Shown here one piece after another: positions 9,402 through 53,090 of a stretch of 64,000 nt of DNA. The first letter of the stretch is position 1, and each line of letters starts with the position of its first letter. This DNA is from Isoetes taiwanensis (taxonomy: Eukaryota > Streptophyta > Lycopodiopsida > Isoetales > Isoetaceae), in assembly GCA_021234155.1 (NCBI GenBank), contig JAJEKV010000006.1:11619317-11683316 (forward strand). The letters are read 5' to 3'. The position numbers and the translations under genes are program-made. The notes under the pieces are model-generated. The model was not told the DNA's origin. It was given only the letters and a program-made list of their open reading frames with translations, and made no database searches.

Positions 9402-10163
9402 TCAAAAATCTATTACTTGATGTAACGTAGATCTCGCCATTATAACATAATCAACAATGCTTCTGGATCTACATGTGGTTCTTTCCGTCCCTGGAAATCT
9501 GGCCAAACCATTACATATAATCATATTAGTACTACAACATAATGTTAACAAAAACCGACCTGTTTTAGTAATGATGTGATCTTGTGAGTATCTATTCCAA
9601 CCATTTGCCGCTAATTCGACATTGTCCATTTGTTCTAACCAAAGCAGATCATGCATGTCTATATAAACTGCTGCCTGTTTTTCACCTGTTCGGCCATTAA
9701 AGTCTCCAGCTAAAATCACTTCTCCCTTATTTTGAAAATCCATAATGTCTTGTTCAATCCCAAAGAAAGGATCGTCCTGTGAGGCTTCAGTTTTATTATA
9801 AACTTTTTGATGTCTCGGGGCAAAGTAACAAATGGCCATGTAATATACTGCTTTTGAACCATTTATTTCCAACCACATATATTGGCCGTTTTTATCATGT
9901 TTAATTCCTGTCACAATTTCTCTATATCTTGTTCGTACATAACATGCCAGTCCACCATTACCAATATCTGTTGCTCCAAATCTGTTACTTCTAACTGAAT
10001 AAATTAAATCAAACTCAGGTATACTAGGTAGAGCATATAACTCATGTTCTTTGGTCTCCAGGAAGCATATCATATCTATATCTGTTAAGATTTCCTGCAT
10101 CGTAATTACTTTTTCTATTGTCAGTCTATTAATGTTCCATATGATTATGCTGAGACCTCCCAC
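9402..10163 (-). CDS. LINE copy 1 ORF2 N-terminus: AP-like endonuclease
   Basis: This 253-codon open frame encodes the nicking endonuclease that starts target-primed reverse transcription. Motifs in order are WNINRL near the start, FLETKEHE (metal-binding Glu), AGDFNGRTG about residue 152 (Asp-x-Asn), and RSIVDYVIM about residue 236. The final Asp-His block survives just past the end, out of frame, as DHCPL near 9365. The frame opens 30 bp after the ORF1 stop. The first codon is GTG with a TAG two codons upstream, so the original ATG is probably mutated. I infer a once-functional ORF2 now cut off from its RT by a frameshift. No host function is suggested. Confidence 0.85.
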   Translation of the reverse strand: MGGLSIIIWNINRLTIEKVITMQEILTDIDMICFLETKEHELYALPSIPEFDLIYSVRSNRFGATDIGNGGLACYVRTRYREIVTGIKHDKNGQYMWLEINGSKAVYYMAICYFAPRHQKVYNKTEASQDDPFFGIEQDIMDFQNKGEVILAGDFNGRTGEKQAAVYIDMHDLLWLEQMDNVELAANGWNRYSQDHIITKTGRFLLTLCCSTNMIICNGLARFPGTERTTCRSRSIVDYVIMARSTLHQVIDF

Positions 10164-10193
10164 GATGCCCTATTCAGTAATTATTGCCTTCCC

Positions 10194-11039
10194 TTATGCC
10201 CATTTACCTGCTTGATTCTTCAGTTTTGCCTCTTTGAACTTTTGAGCTTCTTGTTTTCTCTCTTGCATTTGCTCTTTAGTCAAATCTTCATTAACCCATA
10301 TGAACTTCCCTTTCAGATTGTGCTTGTGTTTCAGAACTTGCAGTCTCGTCTCACGATTAGCAAACTTTACCAAGATATGACGTGTTCCCTTCTCTTTTCT
10401 ACCAATTCTAAATGCTTCCATGATTTCTGTTTTAGCCATTTGCATATCATTTGTAAGAAAAGTTTCCACTACTTCCTTGGTTATCTCGTTCTCCTTCTCA
10501 GGCAGCCCGACTATTCGTAAATTCAGCATTCTCTGTTTCCTTTCTTGTGTTTCCACGTATTTATCAAATACGTCTCTGAGGTTGCTTAATTCCGCCATCG
10601 TGGTTTCTGCCCCTGTTTCAAATGCTCTTTCTTTTATTTCCAGCAGTCCGGATTTTAGTTCATTCATTTCCTCCTGTAGTTGCCCAAAGTTGTTTGCTTC
10701 CGATGGTTTCTCTTTCATTTCTAGCAGTTCAAACTTAACCTCATTCAGCTCTTCCTGCAGTTGTAAGAAATTGGAGTGCAAAGCATCATTTTCTGATCTT
10801 AAGTTCTTAATCTCATCAAAGAGTTTAATCTCCCTGATAGCTGATTCTTGTCTGAAGTTAATGAGTTCTGTCATGATATTGTTCAGGGTTTCTTTGATGC
10901 TTCCAGATTGTTCGCTATCTAAATCAGAAAAGGATGGAGTCCCCTTGCCATTAACAGATACCGAATCCTTATCTCCTGATTTTCCCTTATCTGCTCCTGC
11001 AATATTATCCTGCAGAGATTCAGCTGGGTCCAAAGCCAC
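10194..11039 (-). CDS. LINE copy 1 ORF1p-like protein (coiled coil, RRM)
   Basis: This is an RNA-binding nucleocapsid-like protein of an L1-type LINE. Residues roughly 45-165 are heptad-rich and strongly charged, predicting a long coiled coil with a repeated LQEE(L/M)NE(V/L)K module. Residues roughly 168-250 match the L1 ORF1p RRM pattern, starting MLNLRIVGLPEKENE and including RHILVKFANRETRLQVL. The tail contains WVNEDLTKEQ and is basic. The open frame starts at a GTG and continues in frame upstream to an ATG at 11168, interrupted by one TGA at about 11151, so the original protein was about 43 residues longer. From general knowledge, plant L1 ORF1 proteins often carry CCHC knuckles; this one has none. 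Copy 2 has the matching C-terminus at 14922-15062. Confidence 0.85.
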   Translation of the reverse strand: MALDPAESLQDNIAGADKGKSGDKDSVSVNGKGTPSFSDLDSEQSGSIKETLNNIMTELINFRQESAIREIKLFDEIKNLRSENDALHSNFLQLQEELNEVKFELLEMKEKPSEANNFGQLQEEMNELKSGLLEIKERAFETGAETTMAELSNLRDVFDKYVETQERKQRMLNLRIVGLPEKENEITKEVVETFLTNDMQMAKTEIMEAFRIGRKEKGTRHILVKFANRETRLQVLKHKHNLKGKFIWVNEDLTKEQMQERKQEAQKFKEAKLKNQAGKWA

Positions 11040-11552
11040 GCTTTTATCAGAGATCTTCTGCTTTCGATTTACTTTTGCTTGCTTCTTAACTGCTTCTGCA
11101 TTATCTGTGAGATCCGTAATCGCCCTCGCTAAGTCCGGAATCCGCAGGATTCAGCCGGAAATAAGCATCCGCTTTTTTTTATAGCCGATTTGGACGCTCG
11201 CAAACCAAAGATCCGCCTTTTGCTACCGCTTTTCCTTTTTCGGTTTTGCCATGTTGAACCCTCGCCAGTTTGTGTGGATCGCCCCGACTCGTAAAACCTC
11301 GCCGGCCGGCCAGCACCGCTATCTCGACCGCATTACACGCTTTTAGAGTCGCCGACAAGATGCCTGCTTTCCCAAAATCGCAGACCAGAGTAACCACTGT
11401 AAACTGCCAGAAAAATATCTGACTACTGTAAACTATCAGCAAGATGCTTGTTTGCCGAATCCCCAGGCCGAATAACATGCACAGAACAAGTCGAATCCCT
11501 TGCCCAGAATCACACGTGGTCACAAACAACGAAGTTCCTCTGCTTCGGATGA

Positions 11553-11663: not shown

Positions 11664-13905
11664 TCAAAAGTCAAATATGTCATCATCAGGCAAAAACTCA
11701 TCATCGAGTATTTCGCCATCACTCTCCTCTATCTCATCTCCACTAGTTTCAATAACATGTTTAATTGCTACCTCCCTTAGTTCTATCAGTTCTAGTAAAA
11801 AGCTACCTACTATTGTAGCTTGCATATCAAAAAACTGGTGTAGATTAGGCACTTTAATGCCAAACTTATCTCTCAAGGCTTGGTAAGCTGGACATCTTAT
11901 TATTGCATGCTTCGCTTTCTACCTCATCGCGATCCGCGATGCCCCCGCAAGTCCTGTACTCCCCGTGATGTTAAACCATCTTCCCACTTCTACATCCGTG
12001 GAAATTGCATGTCTCTTTGGACAAGGAAATATTTTCATTTAAATAGCTCATTCCTAGCAAAGATAGGATTCATTTCCTTCCTATAATGTGCCATTTTGAC
12101 ACCGGTGCATACCAAACTCTTCCCCGCGACTTTTTCCCCGAACCCATTCCCCTAATTCTATTTTTATTTCTTTGCCAAGTCTTGTATCAATATTCCCCAT
12201 TTTTCAGAACCGTGACTATCCCATCTCGCAGATACCACCCTTTTGTCAAATGTTGCTTTCAAGGCTAGCCTTGGGTAACTCTCTTCATCCAAATTTCCTA
12301 TTCTCGCCGATATGTTAAATATCTGCATAGAGCCTCCCCTTCTAATTGCATCATCCCCAAGACTCGCTAGGGACATATCATATGGAGTTTGCATTTTAAC
12401 CCCAAGCTCACTGTAAAAAAACTTTTTCAAGCACCCTTTCTATTTTTTTTTGCCATAGCTCCAAGGAGAGTCCAGGTTCCAAACTTCGCAGCCCATATAA
12501 CACCACCGACCGCATTAAGGATTTAAATAGTGTCCGCTTTTAAGCCAAAGTTCCAAATATCAGCTTTTAGACACCGCTTTTGCATGGCAAACAACGCCTT
12601 TTATTCCACCATTAACCCTTTGCTCCACTCGTCCGATTCCACCGAAATGTTTATCCACAATAAGCCCCAAGTACTTATATGAGTCCGGGTGATTTCTATC
12701 ATCTCCCTTTGTATGTAAATGAATAATTTTATCCAGATTAGTCCCAAAGAGCACAACCTTAGTCTTGTCCAAGTTCACTTTCATACCCATTGCATTACAA
12801 AAGCTCCCTAATGTATCTAAATGTCCCAGCATACCTTCTTTACTGACACCAAGACGATATCATCTCCCCATATAATAATATGCTAATCACATAACCTCGC
12901 AAGTTCATCCCCCACCATAAGTGGATATCCATCTTTCCAAATCATCTATAAAAATACCAAAAGTGTGGGCGAAAAGTGGACACCCCTGCTTGACCCCCCC
13001 ATATTACTTCCACTTGCTTTTACATTGACCATCAAATGGAAAAGACAACATGACTAATACCTTCTCATATAATACTCGCACTGCACTTCTCAAGTGTATA
13101 GGTACGTTTATCCGTTCCAAGCTCTCCCACAAGTTATCCCTGGGTACCATATCAAACGCCTTGGCGAAATCTACAAAACCCGCGAAACAATGGTTTTCGA
13201 AGTCCCTTTGATCGTGGTCCATCATCGCTTCTAAAAGTGACCAAATGGTCAATAGTGCATTTTCCGGGTCTAAACCCTGCCTGGCCCTTAGCCCGCACAT
13301 CATGTTGCTCAGCCCACATACTTATTTTATTCTCTAAAATAGTGGCAAAAAGTTTTGCAAATAAATTACTTACCATAATCATACGGTAATTATTCGGATC
13401 GCAGCATCACCGCTTTTATGAATAGGGGACAACTCTACTAACTTGCCATGTTGATGGAAACCCCTCTCGCGATCGCAAAGATTAAACATCTCCGCTATTT
13501 TATTGACTACCACCCATCATCTGCCCATTTAACCATTTCAGCCACTAAACCCAATGAATCGGCCGCTTCCATTAGCAAGTTTTTCTAACCCTTCCTCGCA
13601 CACATCATCCAAGCAGTGTAACTATAAGTTCAGATTTGATCGGTTGTTTCCACTTGAGACGGTGTCAACATGATATAGCTTTTAATCCGCATATGAGGTC
13701 CTCCACCGACAATTGTATATTATTTTGCTTCCTATTCTTCACCTTTTTCCGTAATTGATTTGGGTCAATCAGCCTTTCAGAACCAATTCTTTCCCCGCTT
13801 GAGAGCTAGGAATGCTCTTTTTTTTAAGGCCCGATAATAGTTTTAAACTCTTTGATCAACTTCAGCCTTTTCTTGCCCTTTGGGAACTCTTATAATCGCA
13901 TTCTT
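11664..13905 (-). pseudogene. LINE copy 2 ORF2: RT and C-terminal region, decayed
   Basis: Successive minus-strand fragments give RT blocks in order. These are FAKLFATILENKISMWAEQHDV and GQAGFRPGKCTIDHLV (13200-13380), FVDFAKAFDMVPRDNLW (13130-13200), LDKTKVVLFGTNLDK and YKYLGLIVDKH (12650-12790), and LGVKMQTPYDMSLASLG (12340-12410). An acidic ORF2 C-terminus ends near 11664 (SGDEIEESDGEILDDE). Single-base shifts separate the blocks. It is a retrotransposon polymerase remnant with no sign of host use. Confidence 0.8.
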
Positions 13906-14900
13906 TTAGTTTACATTCCTCATCGAACCAGCCATTGTGTGGCAGCCCTTTCTTTTTACGCCACGAATCAAAGCATGTTTTTTGTGATCTATTAGCAATG
14001 AGGTCAAAACCTCGCTCATCTTTGCCACCTCCTTTGGCCAAATTGCACTTGTCATACATTCTTCACAATACTTCATGTACTTCTCTCTTTTCTTTTGATT
14101 AACATGAATGCGATCTATGTTGACAAGTGCATGATGTTGCACTACTCCAGTAATAGAGATATGTGCAATTATTGGCACGTGGTCTGATTCTCTCCTCACA
14201 TCTGGCACATGCAAGTATGTGACCTGCTCTACAAAATGCTCAGATGCAATAAAGTAATCCACTATACTTTAATAAATTGAGTCCACTACACATACCTAAC
14301 AAATAATTTCCCATTGCAGTATGCCATTTGTCTTTATCTGAGGTTTCCCGGTCCCATCTTGCCAATTCTAGCTCATATTCATCCATCTGATCTATCCAAA
14401 CTGGATCACCATTGTTGCTCAGTAAAGGGGCCTGTTTCCCAGCAGTTCTACCGTTAAAGTCACCCACTAATACTATTTCCCCTGACTCCATTAGTTCAAG
14501 GCTATCTAGCTCCAGTTGTTGAAACGGGTCCTCCATGTCCAATCCATATTTCTGGTATGTAGGCTTTTGTAAAGGTGGGAAGTAGCATCTCGCCACATAG
14601 ATTTTACCTTGTTTCCCCGGTAATTCCACCCAAATGTACTGCTTAGATTCTCTTCTTTTTGTGACCTTTGCTAAATGTGCCATCTTTGCTCTAATATAAC
14701 AAGCTATCCCTCCAAACCCTCGTCTCGTACATCCCTTTTATTCCATACCGAAAGTGCAAAACTACAAAACCTGGTATATCTGGGAGACCACTCTCCTCAT
14801 GCCCCCAAGTCTCTAAGAAAAATACCATATCGATGGATGCTAGAATATCTCCCATCTCTGCAATCTTCCCATTGCTCAGATGATTGATATTCCATGCCAT
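13906..14900 (-). pseudogene. LINE copy 2 ORF2: endonuclease, frameshifted
   Basis: The AP-like endonuclease is split over three frames. An ATG at 14900 opens with AWNINHLSNGK and FLETWGHEESGLPDIPGF. The second frame (14240-14683) has VARCYFPPLQKP and LVGDFNGRTAGKQAP. The third (13906-14262) has MDYFIASEHF and the final RRESDHVPI block with the catalytic Asp-His. All endonuclease motifs survive, but two frameshifts disrupt the domain. It is clearly homologous to the intact frame of copy 1, with the same spacing of GDFNGR and the DY block. Confidence 0.85.
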
Positions 14901-14921
14901 AAGCCTAATGGTCTCTAATCC

Positions 14922-15062
14922 CTATTCATCCTCCTCGATGTGAACCTTTACCCCGCCTCCATACCGCTTTTTTATTGCTTTGTTTGCCGCTTTGAATTTT
15001 TGTAACTCCAATTTATGCTGCTGGAACTGTTCTTGAGTGAGGTCCTCATTGATCCATATATG
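14922..15062 (-). pseudogene. LINE copy 2 ORF1 C-terminus (left of the insertion)
   Basis: The minus frame ends at a TAG (14922-14924) and encodes HIWINEDLTQEQFQQHKLEL, then a basic Lys-rich tail. This matches FIWVNEDLTKEQMQERKQE of copy 1 ORF1. The frame stops being ORF1-like exactly at 15062/15063, where the DIRS-like element begins. It continues at 21755 on the far side. Confidence 0.85.
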
Positions 15063-15211
15063 TACGATTTATCTGCGTTTTGAGATAAGCAGATAAATCC
15101 GCTTCTTGAGTCTAGTTGAGGTGTCTTCCCCTTCGCGGTATTTATATCATACCCCTCTTGATTTCCCCATCAGCCGCCTTAGAGCCGCCTCTCCCTTCGC
15201 CGCCTCCTCTT
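15063..15211 (+). repeat. DIRS-like element: split direct repeat A1 (left end)
   Basis: This repeat is about 150 bp and matches A2 at 21107-21257, for example through TATTTATATCATACCCCTCT. Its first bases form a hairpin: GATTTATCTGC (15066-15076) faces GCAGATAAATC (15089-15099), a perfect 11-bp inverted repeat with a 12-nt loop. By analogy with other tyrosine recombinases this could be the recombinase binding site; that is inference. Confidence 0.85.
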
Positions 15212-16831
15212 AGTGACGGTAGCACTCCTCCCTCGTGTACGCCGGCCAGAGCTTTCGATATGTTTGGCTGAGCGTGCCACCGCGGTTAGATCTCCCTCAG
15301 TCTCAGTTGAGATGTCGCCTTCCTATGGCGCCTCCCGATTTCTTTGCCGGGACTATGGAGGGTCGTGATGGCGCTAGCGCTCCCCTGGGCGGTTTGTTGG
15401 GGTGCTTTTGCCGTAGAATCCAGTTTGGTTCCTCCCTGGTGTTTTCGCTTTGAGCCATCACAGTGTAGGCCTTGCTCGCCGTTCTTTGGCGGTGGATCTA
15501 GCGGAGTCCCTCTTCGGTCAGTTTGGTTGCGGCGGGCTTCTATTACGGTGGGCGTTTGAGTTCCCTAGTTTCACCATGTCTTGTTGCCGCCACGTGCTGG
15601 TTAGTTTGCCAGCCCTTAAGTTCCTGCAGTGTCCAATTTAAGCCTGCTGAGTAGCCTCCACTTCCATAGTTCTCCCCGCTTCCCATAGTTTCTCTATTAA
15701 GCCTGTTGGAGCAGTTGGCACGCTGGCGGATTACGCTGGCCAGCTTGGCGGATGCTCTTAGCTACTTGGCGGTCTTTTCAGTTCCCTTCCACGATGTTTG
15801 GATCTCGCCCGCTTCGGCTTCGATTATTGCTGGTTCCTCCTGGTAGGATTTTTTGTTGTAGTTCTTTGATAGCTTGGCGGTTTGGCTCATGGATTGACTG
15901 GTAATGCGGGTTTTGTTTGTGCTCGATTTCCATGTGCGCGGCCTTTGTGCGTACAAACTGATGCATAGCGATGGGGCCGACCCCCGCTTTTACCATACTG
16001 ATTACCTTGAGCCTATTTCAATTACAATTCGTGAGTTGGTTGGTTCTTGTTTCTATTCCTCTTTTACAGCTATAAGGGGTTCTACGGCAAACCCGCCCAC
16101 CTTTGCTCTACGCTCGCTCTTAGTTCTTAAAGCAGCATAGCCGTATCGGGTCGCGACCGTTTAGCGCCGCCCATACCCGGGTTGCCTTGGAGCCTATTTC
16201 CAATTGTCCAATTCGGAGTCGTTTCTTGTTTCTATTCTCTTTTTACGGTTCTGAGGGTTTCTCACCGCAGACCCCTTGTTCCCGCCCCCGCTCGTTCTCA
16301 GTTTCCCCATTCCCCATGAACTGCCGGGCTCGCCATACGTAGCCTCATCGGGCTTTGACTGATCTGTCGGCCCGCTTCAGTCACAGGCGCTGCCCTTCTG
16401 CATGGTGGAGCCCCTCCTCCCTCCCCGTGTTTCACCGGACTAGGGATTCTGGCCTCTGTGTTGGTGACCCCAGTTTTGTTGCCCAAGTTTCTAGAGTTTA
16501 TTGTGTCTCGATGTTTGTGTGTTCCATCCTTCCTTTCTGCCGTGTTCTTGTGTTTGCCTTTGTAGCGAGGTCTTAGCTCCTGACAGCTTGGAGTTTCGGG
16601 TGCTAGTTCTCTGCCTTCTTTACAGGTTTCGCTATTGTTTTTTTGTTGTACTTGTGGATTGGCTTGATAGATGACTTCGTGGAAGCATGGAGGCTTGGTA
16701 AGCGACCCTTGGAGAGCCGCGGATGATGCCATGGCCCGCTTCCTCGCCCCTCCACTGGTAATCACCAACAGCGCCCCACTGGTGAATAAACTGCCCCGGA
16801 TCTTGCTGAAGCCCCGGCGTGGGCAAGGGCC
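15212..16831 (+). other. DIRS-like element: leader before gag
   Basis: GC-rich leader without a convincing gene. It holds an imperfect tandem duplication of about 180 bp, with copies starting near 16008 and 16187 that share GAGCCTATTTC and TTCTTGTTTCTATTC, both followed by a run ending in a CCCGCC-type stretch. Frames on the minus strand here (for example 16298-16768) show no known motif and look like chance. Confidence 0.5.
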
Positions 16832-17437
16832 ATGGAAGTTCGGCTGGCCAATGCGAAGTCCGATTATTTGGCGGATTTGGAGGCTAAGATCTCAGCACTG
16901 CAGGAGGATGTTGAGCGTAAGAGCAAGAAGAGTCGCACGCCTGCCTTGAAGTTCGAGGGCAACATGAAGCAGTTTGACTTCTTGAATGAGGTAGAAGATG
17001 TGTTTTCAGATTTGGAGAGCAAGCTCCGGCTTCAGAAGGCTTTGGAGCCCCCAGTCAAGCAGTTGATTGATAAAGGTAATACATTGGTACGTAATAGGAA
17101 GCAGATTGTGTTCATTAGGGACCGTGAAGGGTCTAAAGTTGCTGATTGCTATGAATTGGGTGATCTCGTCCAACTTAGTGATGATGATAAGAGGCTTCGT
17201 GCTGCTCGGAAGTTGGCCATGGAATGGGACCCCAAAAACTCCAAGAAGAGATCCTCTGCTAATCCTTTGTTGTGTTTCATTTGTCAGAGACCGGATCATC
17301 GTGCGGCTGCTTGTCCTGCAAGACTTTTGTTATCCCCTAGCCCCCAGCAGCTCAAACTACCAAATTTTAACCCAACCAATGCTTTGTTTTATAAAACTGG
17401 TGTTCCCGGCACGGGCCCATCTGTAGCTAATCCTTGA
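16832..17437 (+). CDS. DIRS-like element Gag with CCHC zinc knuckle
   Basis: This 201-aa open frame is the structural protein of the element. Residues about 8-32 are coiled-coil-like. Residues 40-125 contain LKFEGNMKQFDFLNEVEDVF and an acidic-basic helical region, a layout that resembles the gag domain of other DIRS elements. Residues 148-161 form a zinc knuckle C-x2-C-x4-H-x4-C (CFICQRPDHRAAAC). The frame is open upstream without an ATG back to a TAA near 16795, so the real start may be earlier or lie across a frameshift. It is the only intact frame of the element. Confidence 0.75.
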   Translation: MEVRLANAKSDYLADLEAKISALQEDVERKSKKSRTPALKFEGNMKQFDFLNEVEDVFSDLESKLRLQKALEPPVKQLIDKGNTLVRNRKQIVFIRDREGSKVADCYELGDLVQLSDDDKRLRAARKLAMEWDPKNSKKRSSANPLLCFICQRPDHRAAACPARLLLSPSPQQLKLPNFNPTNALFYKTGVPGTGPSVANP

Positions 17438-18323
17438 ATCGACATTATGAACGTTGGCTGCTATTTATAGTTGTTTTTTGTTTAGTTGATAATTTGAGTG
17501 TGGTTTGTCTTGGCGCCCCTTGGTTGGCTGCTGTTTATAGTTGTTTTTGTTTAGTTGATAATTTGAGTGTGGTTTGTCTTGGTGCCCCTTGCTTGACGTT
17601 GAATTTCTTAGTTGCATGCAGCACGTGTTTGGGGGTAGCCTAGCTTGGTTAACGTGCATGGGGTGTTTCGTGTCCCCCCCCCTTTTTTTCATTTCAATTG
17701 GTTTTGCTTAGTCCCCTATCATTTTTTGGTTGGCCCCTTCATTTGGTATGCGGTTGTACTTCGCCCATGTTGTATTCTTTGAGGTTGTGTGTTCCCCACG
17801 TTTGTTAGCCTGGATAAGTCGCGTTAGGTGGTACACGTCCCTATTTGCTTTATGTGAACATTGCTTAATCGTCACTCCTTGTGCGCATGGGGTTTGATAG
17901 GACGACCATTTTTATAGTTATTCCTTTTCAAATGTTGCTTAGTCGTCCCTCCTTGTACGCATGGGGTTTGCTGCATGGTGCCTAGTTTGTTCCCCTTGAG
18001 TCTGTTGGCCCGTCGCTCGGCCCATTTTTCTTTGGTTGCCCTTTTGCATGGTCGCATTATCTTTTGTTGGGTGCCCCCATTTTGTTTGTCTTAGGGGTAG
18101 CTAGGTTCAGTTTCCTCTCCTTTGTTGGGTTCTCCTTGTTTGCGTGGGCTATGGGTCGGGTTTTGCCCTCCTTTGTTTTTTACCTTGGCTACGCTGGGTT
18201 TTCGCACACATTGCTTGTTAGTCGTAGGTCGTCCTTTGTGGTGATTTCCAGGTTCCTTTCCTGCTCCTTTGCAGACCCCTTAAAAGTTAGGTTTCATTTT
18301 TCTTTGGCTAACGCGGTAATCGC
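17438..18323 (+). other. DIRS-like element: spacer between gag and RT
   Basis: T-rich spacer with local duplications. A 70-bp unit is tandemly repeated at 17453-17522 and 17523-17592 (GTTGGCTGCT(A/G)TTTATAGTTG). A second, weaker pair sharing CGCATGGGGTTTG lies near 17885 and 17960. No protein motif was seen, although the RT N-terminus may be buried here beyond recognition. Confidence 0.5.
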
Positions 18324-19980
18324 TTGTCTTTTGTTGTTTTTTCAGAACTTCAGGGCCCCCCTCCCCCCCCTACTACTTTTCTCCGACATTGCCTGCGGCA
18401 TTGCTTTGATTTTTGGCAGTCCTTTTGCTATGAGACTATCAGTAGCATAGCCTTCCCTCCCCCACTCCTTGAGCCCTCAACCGGGACCGGTGACCATCTT
18501 TTTCACTTTAGATTTGCGCTCGGGTATCACCACATTGACATTAACCCTCAGCTTTGATTTGGCGTATTTGGGTTTCTCCTTTTGATGGCTCCTTTACATG
18601 TTCACATCCTGCCTTTTAACGCCTCTCCACGGTTTTCTTGATGCGGTTCACAATTAAAGTCATAAAGTCACCGCTGCCGATGGCGGTCCATGAGTTTTAT
18701 ACCGCATTCCTTATGTTGATGACTTTTCTTCGCTTGTAGACCCTCCTCCTTTCTCGACCACATCGGCTAGTGCTTGCCAATTTTGAGTCGGTTGGTTTCG
18801 GGCTGCTGCCCTTCATAAATGTCACCTGCTACCTTCTCACGAGGCCAAGTTCTTAGGGTTTGTCGTCAACGCCGGTCTGGTCTTCTCTCCATAGCTCCCT
18901 CGCGTCGTGCACTGCTTTTGGACGCCCCCGCGAACCTTTCGCGGCAACCACACAGTCCAAGCTGTAAACTCTCGCCTCTTTCTTTCTGTATGATCACCTC
19001 CCGCAGTCTAGTCTTTTGGGCCATTTTTGTATCCTCTCTTCCACTGTTTGCTGCCCTATCGCCGTTACCTCTTGGGAACAGATGGTGCCTCTCGTCTCAT
19101 TAAGCTATGGCGAGATCGAGCTTGGGGTGATCGGTTTGACCTACTTAACTCTGCCCATATTTGGGAGTCCTTTTCACCCGGTTTCCCTTTTTATGATGCT
19201 AGTGGCTCGGCTGGGTTTTCGCGTCCGCTTTCCGTGATCTTGCCCCGCCTCTCCGAGGCGCTTTTACCTCTTGAACAATCTATGTCTTCAACCTTCAATT
19301 TTGTCTTGCCTTCTTCACTTTCTTCAACCATCATGCCGCTTCTCTTGCGCTTCTATCATAGCTTATGGCGATAATTTGAATGCTTTCTTTATCCCGCTTT
19401 TAAAGGTGGCTTCGGTCCCCAACCTACATCTCATAGCGTCAAGATTTTTCCTTGTGCTTAAGACATCAGTTTTTGTCTCCAAAACCGCTCCGATACCCCA
19501 TACCCTAAACCAATGGGCGATTAATTCTTTCCAAGCTTGAAGAGTAATGATGATTATAGTTTGATGTACTTAGCCTTTCGCCTTTATTGAGTTTGCTTGG
19601 GGCCCTCATGATTGGGACCGCTTTGTGGACTTCGACAACCACCGCTTACCAAACTTTAATCTGGCGGTATTTGAAATACTTTGTTTGGCCTCCCCGGATG
19701 CTTTTGCTCATAATCGCACGGCCTCAATAATTATTTCCCCATTCCGCCTTTGGTTTTAAGGCCTTCAAGTTTGTTTCTAGCATGCACCGCGGACGCTACC
19801 TTAGTCATCTTCCATTGAGTCCGCTCCTTGGTGGCGCCCCGCATGATGAATTTGGCAATTGGCATCCCGCTTTTGTTGATAGCCTGTACTTTCCCTCGGG
19901 TGGACATTTCTTACGGCCCGGACTCGGTCAACCCTTCCATGTCGCAAACCTTCAAGTCCTTTGATTATGTCTTCTCGGTG
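18324..19980 (+). pseudogene. DIRS-like element RT and RNase H, decayed
   Basis: Broken frames carry DIRS-type polymerase landmarks in order. FCYETISSIA is followed by LFHFRFALGYHHIDINP (GYHHIDINP codons at 18522-18548), where active elements have D-x-x-x-GYHHI. Next come SGLLSIAPSRRALLLDA (about 18880-18930), ITSRSLVFWAIF, and PGFPFYDASGSAGF (about 19175-19215, the RNase H entry). SSTFNFV or SSTLREF-like strings lie near 19290, GDNLNAFFI near 19372-19398 and NQWA near 19512. The stretch near 19600-19660 (GPHDWDRFVDFDNHRLPNFN across frames) fits the tail seen after RNase H in this order. The YLDD box is not recoverable. Many single-base shifts make it a pseudogene. Confidence 0.75.
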
Positions 19981-20109
19981 GTTTCTGAATCCGGTGAGTT
20001 TCTTTTTGTGTTTCGATGTGTTTCTCGTCTAATTTTGAGCTTTCGATGGGGATGTTTGAGCTAGTTTGTCTTCTTCTTCTATTAACACTTTGAAGTCTTA
20101 TAACGGGCC

Positions 20110-20990
20110 ATGGTCGAAGTTCAAGAGTTGGTGCTGCCGAAACACCTTGTTCCCCTACCCCGGAACCCCTCTCCGCTTGTTTCATTACTGCGCCTTTTAG
20201 CCACCTCCCCCTCACTCGCTGTGTTTCAACCGTCTATTGATGCGATTGCTTTCCACCATGCCTTGGCGGGCTTTCGCAAGCCCACCGACCACCCCCTTGT
20301 CGACCTCGTCCGACTCCCCGCTGCCTTTAGTCTGTCCTGGGCGGCCAAGAAGAAGCCATTGCTGCCCCATTTGGTTAGGGCGTGTCATGGATAAGTTCGC
20401 GCCCTTTGCCGCGACCGCCCGGCGTAATGAAATGTTGTGCCTTGGTCTTGTCCTTTGTTGCTTTTTTGCGTAGTGCCGAGCTGCTTGCCTTGCGTTGGGA
20501 GGAGATTCTCCTCCTTCCATCCCACGCTAGCCTTTTTATTAAGTCTTCCAAAACCGATCAGCATGGTATGGGGTCTTGGGTGTCCATTGCTCGCCTGGGT
20601 GGTTTCTACTGTCCTGTAGGTCTCTTGGAGCGCCTTATTGCTTTAGGGGATTTTAGTCGGATAGACGGCCCCCCTGGGGGGCACCTGTTTCGTGGTGTAC
20701 GTGTCTCTCCACATGGTGTATCCATCCGCAAGAAGCCTGTCTCATATTCTACCCTGCGCTCTTGGTTCAAACTTTGCCTTGCCGCCATTGGTGAAGACCC
20801 TTCCTCCTTTGGTACCCATTCCCCGACGCCATGGCGGTGCCACCACGCCACCTGCTTTGGATGTACCCGGATAGCCTTTTAAGGCCCATGGTCGTTGGCG
20901 CTTCCAAGACGCCAGGATGGTTATGTCAATCCCTCCCTCCACCGGCAAGCTGGTCTCTGGCTCTCGGGCACGGTCGTTGAGGATGCCCGC
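20110..20990 (+). pseudogene. DIRS-like element tyrosine recombinase, frameshifted
   Basis: This is the recombinase that integrates the element's circular DNA. A 166-codon frame (20382-20882) contains FLRSAELLALRWEEI, with the first catalytic Arg at 20469-20471, and IKSSKTDQHGMGSW with the beta-strand Lys. GTHS follows at 20811-20822. A +1 shift then gives RRHGGATT, the second catalytic block (H-x-x-R with the following GGAT). HGRW comes at 20887-20898, and in another frame DGYV, whose Tyr codon (20932-20934) is the likely nucleophile. The N-terminal helical part starts near 20110 (LLRLLATSPSLAVFQP). All catalytic positions can be found, but at least two frameshifts separate them, so it is inactive. 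Confidence 0.85.
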
Positions 20991-21076
20991 TATCTGCCGC
21001 CTTATCCTCGGAGTTCCAATAGCACTTCTTTGTTCTGTATGAGTGCCTCCTTCCTCCCTCGCTTCTTTTTTCAGCT

Positions 21077-21257
21077 TGTTGTGTGTGTGCAACTGGGCTC
21101 TAGAAGTAATGATTTATCAAGCGTTTGAGATAAGCGAGATAAATCCGCTCTTGAAGTCCAGTTGAGGTGTCTTCCCCCGTGTATTTATATCATACCCCTC
21201 TTGGATTTCCCCATGTCGGCCGTCTTAGAGCCGTCTCTCACTTCGTCGCCTCCTCTT
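21077..21257 (+). repeat. DIRS-like element: B1-A2 junction repeats
   Basis: B1 (21077-21106) is TGTTGTGTGTGTGCAACTGG plus GCTCTAGAAG and is matched by B2. A2 starts at 21107 with the same inverted repeat as A1 (GATTTATC at 21111-21118 facing GATAAATC at 21138-21145). Having B1 joined directly to A2 inside the element, with A1 and B2 at the outer ends, is the hallmark of split direct repeats. Confidence 0.85.
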
Positions 21258-21724
21258 CTCCCCTCCCCCTCCTCCTAGTTGTCTTTGGTGTCTATTTGTC
21301 TCTCATTTTGCCTCTTCCCTTTAGGCGGTTGGTGAGCGTATGGGTGTGTTAGCCCTTGTGCTAGTTTGTCGTGTTCCATTTTTTTGATGATGGTCCCCGT
21401 GGTTGCAGAGTCTCCTGGGTTTGGTGTGCTCTCTCATGCACCTCGGCTGGTATGGGGTTTATTTGTCCCTTTGTTTTGCGAGTTGCAGGGAGCGCCCTTT
21501 GAGTTCCTCTCATAGGCCTTTGGTCCCACACCGCTTGACCCCCCCGTGGCTGTGGGAGTTTGTTTCATCCGGCTTGGACATTATGCTTTAGATTTCCTTT
21601 GTTGTCCCTATGCTTGTTCGCCCAACAAAGCTGGTCGGCTTTGAGGGTTTTCTTTTTATTTTGCAAAACTTGTACCTTTTGTATTTTGAATAAGGAGAGA
21701 TGCCTAGTGGCTCATTCATTTTGG
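21258..21724 (+). other. DIRS-like element: spacer between A2 and B2
   Basis: About 470 bp of T- and GT-rich DNA with no conserved frame. In elements with split direct repeats the part between A2 and B2 is non-coding. Confidence 0.5.
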
Positions 21725-21754
21725 TGTTGTGTGTGTGCAACTAGGCTCTAGAAT
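21725..21754 (+). repeat. DIRS-like element: split direct repeat B2 (right end)
   Basis: B2 matches B1 except for a GGG to AGG change and its last base. It ends in CTCTAGAAT, after which the LINE ORF1 sequence resumes at 21755. Confidence 0.85.
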
Positions 21755-22419
<665 letters not shown>

Positions 22420-27034: not shown

Positions 27035-27788
27035 TTAGAGAGTGAATGGGGGGCTTAAGGGCTTTTTCGCAATGCAAAGACAATGTGTGAAAGCAGATGT
27101 CTAGAAATTTAGCTTGAAGAAAATGCTATTTAAAACCCTAGTGCAGGTGGTTGTGCTATACGGCTGCGAAGTATGGGGGCCGGGTTTATCTTTGGAACTG
27201 TGGCAAAAAATAGAAAAGGTACAAAAGAAATTTCTGCATGCTGCGCTTGGGGTTAAACTGCAAACTCCCTATGAAATGATGTTAGTGGAATGTGGTATGC
27301 TACCACTAGAATGTGAGGCTATATGCCAATTTTTAACATACCTATGCAAGGTAGGTGGTTTAGCTGATGACAGCTATCCCCATTTAACTCTAAAGGAGTC
27401 ATTTGATAAGCGATGGTACGCAGATGGCATGACCTGGCTAAGAAAATGGGGGCTAAGCATTGAAGGGCTACGTCAGAATAAGGATAAGATTAGGGAATGG
27501 GTGGTGGAGACGGCTATGCGCCGTATATGGTCTAGTCCGGGCACAAAAATGCTGCATTACAGAGCACAAATGAATCTCACGTTGCAGAAGATGAGTTATT
27601 TGAGTTATCTAAGTGCTAACATATCGCTCAGGAAAAGGCATGTCATTTGTAGAATGAGGTTGAGCACGCATCATTTGAATGTGGAGATAGGGAGATGGAT
27701 GAAAATTGCATATGAATACAGAGTATGTCGAGCATGTGGAGCAAATGAGGTTGAGGACGAGGAGCATGTAATTCTAAGGTGTCTTTGA
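27035..27788 (+). pseudogene. LINE ORF2 C-terminal fragment (plus strand)
   Basis: The open frame 27114-27788 (224 codons) is preceded by an in-register stretch from about 27035 containing GLRAFFAMQRQCVKADV and one stop. It carries the post-RT signature VVLYGCEVWGPGLSLE and LGVKLQTPYEMMLVECGMLP, seen also in LINE copies 1 and 2, and ends with the C-terminal zinc-knuckle-like CRACGANEVEDEEHVILRC. The RT core and everything 5' are missing, as in a 5'-truncated LINE insertion. The sequence after the frame (27789 on) is unrelated and no (TC)n tail is seen, so the 3' end is also lost. It is better conserved than the other LINE copies here. Confidence 0.82.
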
Positions 27789-29014: not shown

Positions 29015-29290
29015 TGTTAGAATTCTATGGTTGGTCATCATATATTCCTGTAGGTTTAGATCTCTATGCAGCATAAGAGCTCAGACTGACACTAGAAATA
29101 TCACAGTGATCTTAGGGAAGAAGGAAGTTAAGTTGTTTAAGTTGCTAAGGGAATGATATGATTGAGAGGAAAGAAATATGGAGACTAAAGGTTATAGTTG
29201 CTTAATGGTTTATGAATTAAACCTTAAAGGTGACGGGTTATTTAAAAGATAAGTATCACTAAAAATATGCAAGAGGTTAAGGCCGAATAT
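29015..29290 (+). repeat. Copia A left LTR (approximate)
   Basis: It begins TGTTAGAATTC and matches the repeat at 37836-38096, for example through TTAATGGT(T/C)TATGAATTAAACC and CAAGAGGTTAAGGCCGAATAT. The right boundary is where the two copies diverge. No terminal CA was found there. Confidence 0.65.
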
Positions 29291-29700
29291 CTAGTAAGTC
29301 CGACAATCAGACTTAAACTCAGAAATAAATCTCCAAGGCAGATGTGGATGTATCTCTTAGAACACTGTGAACAAAAAACGTCTTCTCAAATAGATCTTCT
29401 TGAGAATGAACTGAGAGGACTTAAACTCCAGGAAGATGGTGATGTGGCTGAGTTCTTCAACAAATTTGATAACATAATTGCAGACCTAGCAGGAGCAGGG
29501 GTAAATGTGTCAGATAGAAGTCAAGTGCTACAAATTTCTACTGCCATGAGCCAGGTCATTTTAAGGGAGATTGCCCTAAACTAAAAAATGAGCTGACTTG
29601 TTATCATTGTGGAGGTAAAGGGCATTATGCATCCAAATGTACAACACCAAAGGAATATGGCAGAGGTAGAGGAAAGGGAAAAGAAGGTGGAGGAGGAAGA
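29267..29700 (+). pseudogene. Copia A Gag with CCHC knuckles
   Basis: The frame 29267-29584 encodes a copia gag (UBN2-like) core with RQMWMYLLEHCEQK, LLENELRGLKLQEDGDVAEF and an IADLAGAGVNVSD stretch. After a frameshift come PGHFKGDCPK, a partial knuckle, and CYHCGGKGHYASKC, a perfect C-x2-C-x4-H-x4-C (about 29598-29640). The second knuckle is intact, the first is damaged. The basic Gly/Arg-rich segment after them fits a nucleocapsid tail. Confidence 0.75.
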
Positions 29701-29703
29701 AAT

Positions 29704-30229
29704 ATGAATTATAGAGGGAGAGGATGCAGAAGATCATCTGGAGTTCACATAGCCCGAGAACACAATGAAGGAGAAAAATCAGAGATTGAGGATGAAAATG
29801 AGGTAAACCTTGCCTTACCTATTCTTGATAAGGGATTAGAGTCTAATAAAATCTCTGATGCGTTTGTAGTTGATAGTGGAGCTGAAAGATCCAGTAGTAC
29901 AATCATCTACACTCTGCCAAGAATATTACTCAAGCAAAGTTCAAGGAATATTGAAGTTGGAAATGGAGACTTATTGCAAAATAGAAGGAAGGTCCACAAG
30001 CGCTTATTAGATCTAGAAGGAAAAATAGTTGACATTGAAAAATGTCTTGTGTGTGCCTTGCATTGTCAAGAACTTAATATCAGAAGTCCAGCTTGTTGAT
30101 TTAGGATATCGAAATAATTTTGACTCTAAAGGATGTAGAATCTTTCTCAATAATGAATTGAAGTTTTTTGCCAAAAGATATGGTAATTTATTCCCAAATG
30201 GAAAATCAGTGCTACAATAGTGTGAACTC
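29704..30229 (+). pseudogene. Copia A protease and pre-integrase region
   Basis: The frame at 29704-30099 contains DAFVVDSGAERSS, the aspartic protease D-S-G-A site, followed by VGNGDLL. A shifted frame (30029-30220) gives VLCVPCIVKNLISEVQLVD and FDSKGCRIFLN, the conserved block that links protease and integrase in copia elements. Sequence identity to copia stops near 30230 and resumes at 31851. Confidence 0.75.
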
Positions 30230-30257
30230 TACCTGGTATGTCGTAAATGGAACTATG

Positions 30258-30857
30258 GCATAACAACCAAATACATAACAACCATTGACATCAACAACCA
30301 AATACATAACTACCATTGACATTAACAACCAACACATAATTGTTAACAACATAACATTCAATTGGGTATGGTCGACATCGATGGTTCATTGACATATCAA
30401 CTATCATTATAATTATATTATTGATGTTCAACATTAAAATTGTTCAAAACCTCCCCAAAACCCCCTTTGGTTTGGGTGCATATTCACCCGGGGTGACCCG
30501 CAACTAGAGCCGCTGGATAGGCATATATCACCCCTTATTCCTTAATCACACCGCACGAAGTTCCTCGCTTGTGGGGGTATGCAAAATTTACATAATACAG
30601 ATAACAAGATTCAAGTAAAATACTATAAGATTTCAAGCGAAAATACTATATGGTGTTGATTTTGTACTGCAAAATACAATATGAGGGCTCACTGCCCCAC
30701 GCCACCCCCTCTGTGAATATGCACCCAAACCAAAGGGGGTTTAAGGGGGATTTTAATTTAAATGTGTTGGACCCAATGGTTGTGTTAATTAATGTCAATG
30801 GTAGTTATGTTGGTTGTTAATGTCAATGGTTGTTATGTGTGTTGGTTGTTGTTGTTG
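30258..30857. mobile_element. Inverted-repeat MITE-like insertion
   Basis: The ends are inverted. ACATAACAACCATTGACATC (30273) mirrors the right end at 30811-30838, and AACCCCCTTTGGTTTGGGTG with CATATTCAC (about 30463-30490) mirrors GTGAATATGCACCCAAACC with AAAGGGGGTTT (about 30713-30743). The arms are roughly 230 bp, imperfect, and internally repetitive (CAACCA...CATTGACAT units). The centre, about 220 bp, is non-coding. No transposase is present. It sits inside copia A, so it inserted later. Confidence 0.7.
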
Positions 30858-31850
30858 GTTTTCATAAAAATTTGTTCTTCGCCTTAGGGACCCGTGAGAC
30901 AAAAATTTTAGAATTCAAACCAGAAAAATTAGAATTCATTTGAGGCTTTCATCACTTGTAGCTTTTTGAATTTCATCACAATAAAAACAAATAGAACATA
31001 AGTAAAAGTACTATAAAGATAGAGCGGATTGATCCCATTATTCCGAAGTCAAAAGTTTGGCAACACTATACACAAACATTTTTCAACTGGAATTCAAATT
31101 TTGGCCTCCATGGATTCTTGTGGTGAGAAACCAAAGTGGAAACTTTTTTCATGAAAGTTAGCACAAGGATCTAGAAGCCTTGGAATTTGCTTTAATAACT
31201 CGCAAAATCTAAAAAATGCATGGTAATTTTTGCAACCTTCATTCCTGAATGAGCTTTGGCAAACAATATCCAATAGCGCAACTCAGATAATCACCGGTAG
31301 GATGAAAGCCACCAAACCCGGCTGAAAATTGCTGTTTTAGCATACATAACTTAACCAAACATATCCATATCATACAATATCAAAAGATTCTCGAGAGCTT
31401 TCCAACACAAATAAAATCATCTCAAACAGAGCCTGATCAAAAAGTTATGATAAGAAATGTGTTGCCGGCGGGGAAACCTGACTACATGCACCCTTCAAGC
31501 TCCTTCATGTGCCCATTATGCACCACACACACAAAAAGATTAAGTTGTCGACCACATGCACCATACGCAAAAAAGAGGCTTTTGTTATGAGCTATTGGTT
31601 GTCGACCATTATGCAATACACGCGACAAAAAAAGGGCTTTGTTGTGAGCCATCAGTTTTGACCATTGGAAAAAAAAAGGCTAAAATCAATGGCTCAAATG
31701 GTGCACTTCTAGATGTAATGATTAGTACATCCATTTGAATACATCAATAAATCATAGGAAAAAAAAAAACCTTAGTGAAAAGCGACAAAATACAAAGAAA
31801 ACCCTATGCTATTATTATGCTACATATTAGGTTTGGGACATACAAATTGC
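30858..31850. other. Unassigned DNA inserted in copia A
   Basis: AT-rich, non-coding DNA separates the copia pre-integrase block from the zinc/integrase block. Two loosely similar stretches near 31500-31560 and 31590-31640 (CGACCA...AAAAAGGCTTTGTT(A/G)TGAGC) suggest an internal duplication. I cannot name the element. Confidence 0.45.
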
Positions 31851-32420
31851 AATAACCTCAAAATATTGGCAAAGGAAGGATGGATTGATCAGAAAATCAA
31901 AGAAACGAAAAGTTTTGTATGTGAAGGGTTGTTTACCTAGGAAAATTAAATAGATTTCGCCTTTCAAAAGGACTAAAAAGCAAGAGCAAGTCACATTGGA
32001 GTTGATTCACACTGATTTGTTGGTCCACTAAATGTAAGGGAAGATCAAACAAGAGATACTTTATATAACATTCATGGATGATTATAGTAGAATGTGTAAA
32101 AGTATTGTCTAGAAAGGAAATCTCAGGCCTTGGCGGGCTTTTAAAACAATATGTACAAAGGGTTGGGAGAGAAACAGCCTAAAAGTCAAATGTATAAGGT
32201 CCGACCGTGGAGGGGAGTATTTGTCCACAAAGTTCAAACTTTTTTTGCATTTCTAATGGCATCAAAAGACAACTTATGTAGGTATAGCCTCAAAGAAATG
32301 GGAGTAGAGAAAAGGAACTGAGAACCATTATGGATGTCGTAAGAGCTATGATCAAGCACAAAGGGGCTGCCAAACTATCTCTGGAGGAAGCACTCAAACC
32401 CGCCATTCTAATTCAAAATA
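31851..32420 (+). pseudogene. Copia A integrase, decayed
   Basis: Frames across stops give NNLKILAKEGWIDQKIKET, then PFKRTKK and QVTLELIHTDLL (about 31960-32020), TFMDDYSRM (about 32070-32095) and CIRSDRGGEYLSTKF (about 32190-32235). These are the zinc-binding/entry region and the catalytic core blocks of copia integrases, with both Asp positions of the D,D(35)E triad visible. Several frameshifts interrupt it. Confidence 0.78.
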
Positions 32421-32587
32421 AACCGCCTCTTCTCGCTCTAAAAGGTAAGGTGCCTCAACTTTTTGGTCAAATTCGTAAAATAAGATAGATCTTAAGTTGG
32501 CAGGTAGCATATGGCTTAGCAGCATATTCACACATTCCATCAGAGCTGAGAAAGAAATTAGACAACAAGGCTGAAATTGGATATCTT

Positions 32588-33202
32588 GTGGGATATGACA
32601 GTGAATCAAAGGGATATAGACTTTTTGTTCCAAATACTAAACAGATTATCATTAGCAGAGATGTAATTTTCGATGAGGAGGTTTTTTATAAGGACAGACT
32701 AAAGAAAAAAGAAGAAAAGATGAATGCATCATATGATGAAAAAAAGGTGACTTTTGAAGTAGATTTAGAATCTAATGATGGCAGTGATGAGCAGAATAAA
32801 GAGGATAGTATGACGCAAGAAGATACATCAAATCAACATCCATCAGCTGAACATGAGGAAGAGGAAAGTATACAAGATGAACCGTGCATCAAAAGAAGAA
32901 AAACACAAGCAGAAAAATTAGTAGAAGAGGCAAGAATTGACAATGTAGAATATGGGAGAACTGAAAGTGGAAAAAGCAAAAGATTGCAACAACTAAATCA
33001 TGATAATGATCAGATCTTGGCAATATTGGAAGATGTTGAAACCCCTCAGAGACTTGAGAAGGCTTTAACACTAGAGTGGTCAGGTGATGGACCAGAAATG
33101 GTCCATTTGAAGTGTTCACTTCAAAATTCATATAAAATCAATGGTATAAAATTTATTCGAAGTGTTCCTAGAAGTTCATATATGGCAGTCATAGTCCACT
33201 AG
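32588..33202 (+). pseudogene. Copia A integrase C-terminus and linker
   Basis: A 204-codon open frame starts GYDSESKGYRLFVPNTKQI and continues IISRDVIFDE, the GKGY-like block at the end of copia integrases, preceded by an out-of-frame PSELRKKLDNKAEI stretch. A long acidic, low-complexity linker follows. The last part (LEDVETPQRLEKALTLEWS) marks the approach to the RT, but the RT itself is missing here. It resumes near 36372. Confidence 0.75.
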
Positions 33203-52154: not shown

Positions 52155-53090
52155 ATGGCAATGCAGGAGAGGACTCTATTTGCTGCACTGATATCAGTAA
52201 TAGTGATATGGCTAATAGCTCTAGGAGTGTTCGCCATCAATGTGTGGGGGTTAATAATAAGTGCACAAGCCCTGGGTGGCCATGAATTAAGAGAATGTGA
52301 CTTTAAGCTAAAGTGGGTATTCTTCATTGGCTCTCTAATGGCTTGTGGCTTATCCTTAGTTGCAACAGGGGGATCCCTTAGGTACCATAATGCCCCCATT
52401 TTTGATGACCCTATCCCCCCTCCTCGTGCTACTTGGATTTCCATTGAATCCCTTGCCTCTCTTGGGATTCTTGTCTGGGCCATTCTTGCATCTGTTTGGT
52501 ACCACGATATCCGTTTGGCTGGCGTATGTTCTCCATGGTTGGTCCATTCTGCTAAAAAGATGGTTTTCGTGCTATGGGTGGATGTTACTTGGGGGTTGTT
52601 TGTCCTTTTCCTTGTCTCTATAGTGTATTTTCTATTGGTGTTCTTCCTTTCTATTCGTCGTTCACAGTAAGTTTTTCTATCATAATAAAACTAACTCGAT
52701 TTCTTTCATGTGCCCCATAGCCCATTCAATATTAAATGTAATCTTAGATCCCAATGCTATGTACGTAAATCACATATCCAATGGATTTTTAACACACGAT
52801 GTAGTGAATCAGTTTTGAGATTCTCATGAGTAGATAGTCAAACAAGCCAACTCTAGTATCTCGGACCTTACACAACCTTCCATTTGTCGTTCTATCGTTT
52901 ACCACTTCTACAGATATAGCATTACTCTCTAAAAATATGAATATGCAATGCAGGTTTTTAGGCTAGTTTAGAAATTTCTTTCAACCATCCCCCCTACCCC
53001 TTCCTTTTGTTCCCCTTTTTTCACATTGCTTAAAAAATAATATTCTTGGTCATATGCAGGTCAGTGCTTGAAGATGTAACACATGTGTAA
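52155..53090 (+). CDS. Two-exon gene for a four-transmembrane protein, family unknown
   Basis: Exon 1 runs from ATG at 52155 to 52666, exon 2 from 53060 to 53090. The exon 1 frame stays open for 170 codons and meets ACAGTAAGT, where GTAAGT is a consensus donor. After a pyrimidine-rich tract and ATATGCAG the frame continues SVLEDVTHV and stops. The 180-aa product has four hydrophobic segments (about residues 8-36, 53-73, 98-116, 134-165), short ends and a hydrophilic loop with HNAPIFDDPIPPPRATW. Topology resembles MARVEL/CASP-like or tetraspanin-like proteins, but I recognise no family signature. If the donor is not used, the protein ends one codon later at TAA (52668-52670). It is the only undamaged host-type gene here, with no codon break. 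Confidence 0.65.

Follow-up and report, generated by a model that had tools for sequence, protein, structure and literature searches.

The stretch of DNA analysed here (the window) comprises 64,000 nucleotides of the forward strand of contig JAJEKV010000006.1 from the lycophyte Isoetes taiwanensis (assembly GCA_021234155.1). It contains an element that lies within a long interspersed nuclear element (LINE) and that carries the remains of a gag gene, of a pol region with reverse transcriptase (RT) and ribonuclease H (RNase H), and of a tyrosine recombinase (YR), along with two pairs of direct repeats designated A and B. We regard it as very probable that this is a degraded split-direct-repeat (SDR) YR retrotransposon of the DIRS order (PAT or Ngaro type), native to a lycophyte and almost certainly to I. 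taiwanensis itself. Its features are listed below; L009 and similar handles denote sequences from the same genome.

15062..21753, plus strand: whole inserted element, GTACGATTT...CTCTAGAA, 6,692 bp, within a LINE; ends set by empty sites
15062..15212, plus strand: A1, left terminal repeat
16691..17437, plus strand: gag with a CCHC knuckle; N-terminal part broken, 16832-17437 open
16800..18420, plus strand: mosaic block, most likely from a young lineage; 5.7% substitutions relative to L009
18324..19560 (right bound approximate), plus strand: RT and RNase H, frameshifted, YVDD near 18712; tblastn of P0001, three frames
19560..20000 (bounds approximate), plus strand: pol tail, possibly a degenerate Dam-like (methyltransferase-like) region; PF05869 signal weak and in other families only
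20004..21003, plus strand: YR, frameshifted, with R, K, HxxR, HGRW and Y blocks; tblastn of P0002, E 7.5e-92
21077..21105, plus strand: B1, internal repeat
21106..21257, plus strand: A2, internal repeat, abutting B1
21725..21753, plus strand: B2, right terminal repeat
13909..15061, minus strand: left flank, part of the interrupted LINE, endonuclease frames
21754..21860, minus strand: right flank of the interrupted LINE, stretch tested

Borders and coding remains of the window element

The element is ordered A1, gag with its CCHC knuckle, RT, RNase H and pol tail, YR, B1 with A2, and B2. A repeat search matched B1 to B2 in the window copy at 97% over 29 nt, and the alignment scores of both pairs (106 for A1/A2 and 27 for B1/B2) lie far above the best values from 500 dinucleotide shuffles (22.5 and 16, respectively). 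These results uphold the arrangement A1...B1A2...B2, which had been proposed in a preliminary description of the window made from the sequence alone. No terminal inverted repeats were found in the window element at a minimum length of 20 nt, where the sole inverted pair is internal and 22 nt long.

The borders of the element are defined by other copies of the interrupted LINE. When the genome (an assembly of 1,658,258,908 bp in 1110 sequences, for which all match counts given here are lower bounds) was searched with the joined flanks, at least 39 places were listed, two of them being the window's own flanks. The empty site is present at the same spacing in all ten LINE copies examined (L029-L034 and L037-L040); seven of these read ...CCATATAT|TCTG... 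exactly, and the other three have diverged in letters. Because these copies show the empty site, the element is delimited to positions 15062-21753, and it inserted into the LINE with neither duplication nor loss of target sequence. The ends originally proposed fall within one base of these positions.

We placed the remains of gag, pol and YR in the window by tblastn with natural proteins of better-preserved copies. Those of gag are found at 16691-17434 (88%, with protein P0004). This gene had been called intact, which proved incorrect: relative to other copies it begins near 16690 and holds two stops, such that 16832-17437 is its open C-terminal part. The proposed CCHC knuckle stands, since the pattern CxxCxxxxHxxxxC is directly visible, and zf-CCHC matches the window gag with an E-value of 0.0053 (17.2 bits, below the Pfam cut-off of 20.8); the values for the window and its copies range from 0.0039 to 0.0074, likewise below the cut-off. 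Remains of pol are spread over three frames at 18324-20029, in accordance with the decayed RT and RNase H of the preliminary description. Those of YR occupy 19979-21003, again in three frames and on the same strand as gag and pol, and the recombinase blocks named earlier (Arg, GTHS/RRHGGATT, HGRW and DGYV) can be read directly as LRSAELLALRW, GTHS and RRHGGATT (in two frames), HGRW and DGYV. The window copy is old and dead.

Elsewhere in the window, LINE-like frames are located at 9402-11150 and 12167-14737 on the minus strand and at 27105-27785 on the plus strand; LINEs are the targets of the window element and of the related copies L012 and L047. Plus-strand frames at 29246-33199 resemble, by reading only, a worn Ty1-copia element (CCHC, copia-type tail). 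An open frame of 171 amino acids at 52155-52670 (plus strand) includes several hydrophobic stretches and perhaps encodes a membrane protein.

Related copies and families in the genome

At least 40 places in the genome, the window included, match the window YR region at the DNA level with 100 to 66% identity (40 of 83 candidates scored), and we retrieved 20 of the other 39 listed (L009-L028). The preliminary description had suggested a search for copies with matching A and B repeats, and such copies exist: all four repeats are present in L009, L015, L017 and L018, and more copies show part of the set, including L020 with a partial A1 plus A2, B1 and B2. The remaining copies have fewer repeats, partly through truncation and partly where the retrieved stretch ends. 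Most of the 5' region is missing from L015. Among 21 sequences (the 20 copies and the window), ten carry the internal joint exactly as CTCTAGAAGTACGATTT, with the others having a variant or lacking the stretch. The longest open frames reach 661 amino acids for pol (L012), 367-368 for YR (L009 and L011) and 255 for gag (L009 and L010).

Protein searches of the genome yielded at least 116 matches to YR (111 of 1631 candidates scored) and at least 150 to gag (149 of 857 scored), and the Phage_integrase profile found at least 58, all over the cut-off (148 of 246 scored). For many of the gag relatives listed, often lying in open frames, the match to the query stops at about residue 167-177, a hint of further families in which the C-terminus of gag is different. 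A second family is represented by L046 and L047, whose YRs are 42 and 40% identical, respectively, to that of L009, and which also encode gag, RT and RNase H. The L009 residues R183, K210, H299, R302, H322, W325 and Y334 are invariant in the four aligned YRs (L045 being the fourth). Split repeats of its own are present in L046 (A, 91% over 188; B, 91% over 45). A further family is exemplified by L056, in which the order from RNase H to YR is preserved.

The second family has an extra open frame 5' of gag (L046:5865-6551, minus strand, 229 amino acids; L047:5712-6425, minus strand, 238 amino acids). It gave no Pfam match at E <= 1, and its ratio of nonsynonymous to synonymous substitution rates (dN/dS) is 0.28. 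A pyrimidine-rich stretch ending in AG directly precedes the conserved pol start in L009, L012, L015, L017, L020, L046 and L047, and another directly precedes the YR start in L009, L011-L013, L015, L016 and L045-L047. These stretches recur in several families, as if pol and YR might both be reached by splicing. The idea that a 22-nt GT...AG segment where pol meets YR is an intron was rejected, as the segment is too short and, in L045, not consistent in frame (frames assigned by hand).

Some copies appear to be young. The A1 and A2 repeats are identical over all 145 aligned bases in L015 (with two gap columns) and share 145 of 146 in L009; identity is 0.986 in L012, 0.979 in L017 and 0.931 in L018, and the window copy has 0.935 along with 14 gap columns. 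Fourteen of 15 pairwise comparisons involving gag, pol, YR and the extra L046/L047 frame gave dN/dS values of 0.10-0.35, from frames that were picked for being open, a choice that favours low values. The remaining value, 0.57, comes from pol of L012 and L015, where the L015 N-terminus reads differently. As judged from these sequence comparisons, the lineage has evidently replicated under selection and recently.

The window copy itself is a probable mosaic. Its divergence from L009 is 21.1% at 15062-16800, falls to 5.7% at 16800-18420, and rises to 15.7% at 18420-20100; outside this gag block it remains uneven, with 12.5% at 20100-20400, 7.3% at 20400-20880 and 12.1% at 20880-21754. The block differs from 18420-20100 and from 15062-16800 with Fisher p values of 9e-20 and 1e-35. 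Most likely a younger copy supplied it, whether through gene conversion or through template switching, which would explain the contrast between gag and RT in the preliminary description. Slow evolution of gag was rejected as the cause, given that the block extends past gag into 17437-18420 and that young copies lack the gag/pol contrast (L010 and L012 versus L009, p 0.38 and 0.43); older copies, whose gag is nearer to that of the window than their pol is (L016, for instance, 88% versus 78%), do fit that explanation. Errors from unpolished reads were also considered for the decay of the window copy. Short indels are indeed enriched in the window copy and some error is possible, but substitutions dominate over indels, with 253 against 46 in the window at 18420-20100, 91 against 4 for L012/L009 and 119 against 18 for L010/L009.

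Classification and host

The characteristics by which YR retrotransposons are recognized, namely RT with RNase H, a tyrosine recombinase and the absence of a target-site duplication, are present here, as are the split direct repeats of the SDR class. In the copies, RT matches RVT_1 of Pfam (E 6.5e-18 in L012 and 1.6e-18), RT_RNaseH is matched at 8.3e-4 (below cut-off), and the nearest solved relative of RT is the Ty3 RT (E 2.6e-19). The YR matches an integrase in PHROGs (E 1.5e-6). The YR of L056 exceeds the Phage_integrase cut-off (E 4.3e-9), and that of L046 reaches 7.1e-5, plus 9e-4 for a SAM-like N-terminal domain, both below cut-off. Thus, a tyrosine recombinase takes the place of a DDE integrase, in the copies by profile and in the window by homology to those copies.

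A single relative of the YR was found outside the genome, a bacterial-type integrase in a viral contig (E 7.3e-20 with the YR profile, 26% identity); from its neighbours we read this integrase as actinobacterial. Scans of viral contigs gave this one integrase with one query and nothing with two others, and no relative of RT. No relative was found in a scan of prokaryote genomes. The preliminary description would have been contradicted by recombinase frames matching only bacterial or cellular integrases; in this genome, RT, RNase H, gag and split repeats accompany the YR in one unit.

Several results weigh against our assignment. Ten pieces of RT and YR from the window gave no relevant Pfam match and one spurious one, and for this reason the identity of these window regions rests on the other copies. 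Even the nearest long YR frames (L009 and L011) match Phage_integrase at only E 0.24-0.29, a PDB search with the YR profile found nothing, and a comparison of YR with the HP1 integrase produced no match. In addition, no split repeats were found in the retrieved stretch of L045.

A decayed Ty3-type long terminal repeat (LTR) retrotransposon that happens to adjoin an integrase fragment of other origin, the repeats being due to chance, would account for the Ty3 affinity of RT. This possibility is vanishingly small, as RT, RNase H and YR occur in order in several families, the repeats score far above shuffles, and insertion was precise and free of target duplication; the empty sites and the second family already refute it. 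Nor did Pfam scans of the pol and YR frames of the copies reveal a DDE integrase or any integrase-core family, and the copies bear split repeats in place of the ordinary LTRs or DDE integrase that would have spoken against the original proposal.

We judged the likeness to PAT and Ngaro elements from repeats, domains and YR orientation as set against published descriptions. Like PAT elements (Pat1, Toc3), the window element combines A1...B1A2...B2 with gag, RT/RNase H and YR, and its gag has a zinc finger as in Pat1 (Toc3 from algae has none; PMC4157794), but the host is a lycophyte, and signs of a methyltransferase (MT) domain are weak and come from related families, not from the window's own. 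Ngaro elements likewise have SDRs in which B1A2 follows YR, together with gag, RT/RNase H and a sense YR, and are described as lacking MT (PMC4157794, PMC3266345), whereas here a Dam-like remnant is weakly suggested in related families. The MT domain is the published feature that decides between the two types (PMC4157794, PMC3266345). The region after RNase H was matched by Dam (PF05869) in two of five alignment members, with a weak best E-value of 0.011; L047 and L056 alone gave 0.023 and 0.16, also weak, over overlapping profile intervals. These matches in two other families weaken the view that the element leaves no room for an MT domain.

An element of the PAT type as found in sea urchin, with SDRs, a zinc-finger gag, an MT-like domain and a sense YR, is therefore a serious candidate that we place just short of an even chance. 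The SDRs, the CCHC gag, the Dam-like signal in two related families and the sense YR are as expected for it, but the MT assignment is not significant alone, and L012, a member of the window family, shows no PF05869 match in the region after RNase H. A Ngaro-type element, in which that region would be a plain pol tail and not a methyltransferase remnant, is comparably tentative in our estimation, falling slightly under even. The position of B1A2 downstream of YR is as described for Ngaro (PMC4157794), and the Dam signal is weak in further respects: a PF05869 search of the I. taiwanensis genome gave no match at E <= 0.001, and comparison of the pol tail with HP1 Dam gave a non-significant E-value of 0.47. 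Against a plain pol tail stand the PF05869 matches in the two other families, which have PPP where HP1 Dam has PPY. Gag and the pol tail may resemble those of animal Ngaro-like elements.

Two other groups are excluded by repeats and YR orientation. DIRS1 shares RT, RNase H and YR, and the absence of target duplication is a DIRS property (PMC8969392), but the window element lacks the terminal inverted repeats of Dirs1-like elements. Kangaroo of Volvox shares the split direct repeats and the green lineage but its YR is inverted and its gag lacks a zinc finger (PMC4157794), in contrast to the sense YR and CCHC gag found here.

The I. taiwanensis assembly is reported as 1658.30 Mb in 204 scaffolds and 909 contigs, with a scaffold N50 of 17.40 Mb (PMC8566536), and the species belongs to Embryophyta, Tracheophyta, Lycopodiopsida in the NCBI taxonomy. 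Fungi and green algae have YR retrotransposons (PMC3783388, PMC3266345), and contamination by fungal or algal sequence could in principle have introduced the element. We find this very improbable, because copies are located on many scaffolds of up to 53 Mb and sit in repeats that have many other copies in the same genome. The repeats, the empty sites and the other copies together bear out the proposal of an SDR element with PAT/Ngaro layout in a land plant.

The preliminary description had also called such elements rare in land plants. This agrees with a 2022 review that leaves DIRS out of land plants (PMC9033089); a 2011 survey of 274 genomes reported green plants as devoid of DIRS1-like elements and found PAT-like elements in Chlamydomonas and Volvox (PMC3266345). 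It is at odds with automated tallies that give 361 'DIRS' entries (45 kb) for the C-fern (PMC6890710) and assign 8.26% of the genome of the conifer Cunninghamia to 'DIRS' (PMC13415678). PlantRep also has DIRS as a category (PMC9035001). No repeats or recombinases were found described in the accessible portions of these three sources. The word 'DIRS' occurs nowhere in the main text of the I. taiwanensis genome paper (PMC8566536), and no element of this kind was found described for a lycophyte in the literature covered; the search did not extend to most subscription papers or to RepBase, and an earlier description is possible.

Proposed replication and exceptional copies

The structures described above can be arranged into a provisional life cycle. 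Transcription would begin within A1 and proceed to a 3' end just before B2, as suggested by copies truncated there, and the predicted transcript would end near GGCTCATTCATT. Gag packages RNA, and RT and RNase H make cDNA. The missing ends would be restored from the internal B1A2 copy, and a circle with a B|A joint would form. YR would then recombine this joint with the target and thereby insert the circle without target duplication, an outcome evident from the empty sites, with the enzymatic step itself being presumed. B1|A2 is the same sequence as the circle joint, so that YR may also divide the circle and thereby produce mini-elements (A2...B2) and elements that extend from A1 to B1.

Restoration of the ends from B1A2 is partly supported, because variants peculiar to one copy recur in both of its B repeats in L017, L018 and L019 and because the left border of B2 varies between copies. 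Among the A repeats, only those of L017 are clearly closer to each other (0.979) than to those of any other copy (0.781-0.894). Two observations count against this step: the two B repeats are not the same in the window copy, L022, L025 and L026, and in the window copy and L018 the A1 and A2 repeats are no closer than some pairs from different copies. The overall pattern of repeat variants would fit restoration from B1A2 in each cycle followed by decay.

Candidate mini-elements were sought with the A2-B2 stretch, which has at least 50 matches in the genome (40 of 120 candidates scored). We examined three candidates without a listed YR neighbour (L049, L050 and L051); each came with some 560-630 bp of flank on the upstream side, and in none is A immediately preceded by B1. 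One of the three, L049, is a complete A2-B2 mini-element of 654 bp with both ends; L050 lacks B2, and L051 is cut short. For the target of L049, 40 of 1815 candidate places were scored; every one of the 40 runs across the joined flanks, and 16 do so with exactly 160 bases for 160, as judged from spans and not letters. Elements that end at B1 are represented by L013, L014 and L047. One LINE copy within the window continues across the L047 site, apart from a 1-base gap that lies a few bases away from the joint.

Not every copy seems to have arrived by the YR route: L012, whose element lies on the minus strand, has no B2 and stands between the two halves of a 12-bp target duplication, which runs counter to the proposed cycle. 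The single-copy form of its target is matched at exactly 219 bases for 219 by 24 of the 40 LINE places scored, and two of the 40 are its own flanks. This copy probably owes its insertion to something other than the recombinase, for instance to repair or to LINE proteins. L010, L012, L016 and L050 all end near GGCTCATTC without B2, and this common end suggests a transcript 3' end.

Mini-elements and B1-ended forms fit either circle splitting or recombination between repeats after insertion. The latter, acting on A1/A2 or B1/B2 in the manner that generates solo LTRs, is a candidate explanation to which we give almost an even chance. Both repeat pairs are direct, A1 and A2 are near-identical in young copies, and the same structures with clean flanks would be expected, but B measures only about 29-45 nt and is short for homologous recombination. 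As this process would leave the same products, we have lowered our confidence in circle splitting within a large radiation from somewhat better than even to even. We therefore offer as an evenly balanced proposal that a large, recently active SDR-YR radiation exists in a vascular plant, in which YR uses B1|A2 as a second joint and circle splitting feeds the formation of mini-elements of ~650 bp. If true, these elements would possess a built-in route to non-autonomous copies, one that is directly testable from genomic products.

The element kind is known and the host is unexpected: a lycophyte harbours a recently active, multi-family and well-delimited population. In our judgement, its empty sites and mini-elements provide natural material for learning how split-repeat elements restore their ends and insert. 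The population also moves the printed border of DIRS elements, hitherto drawn at the green algae, into the vascular land plants.

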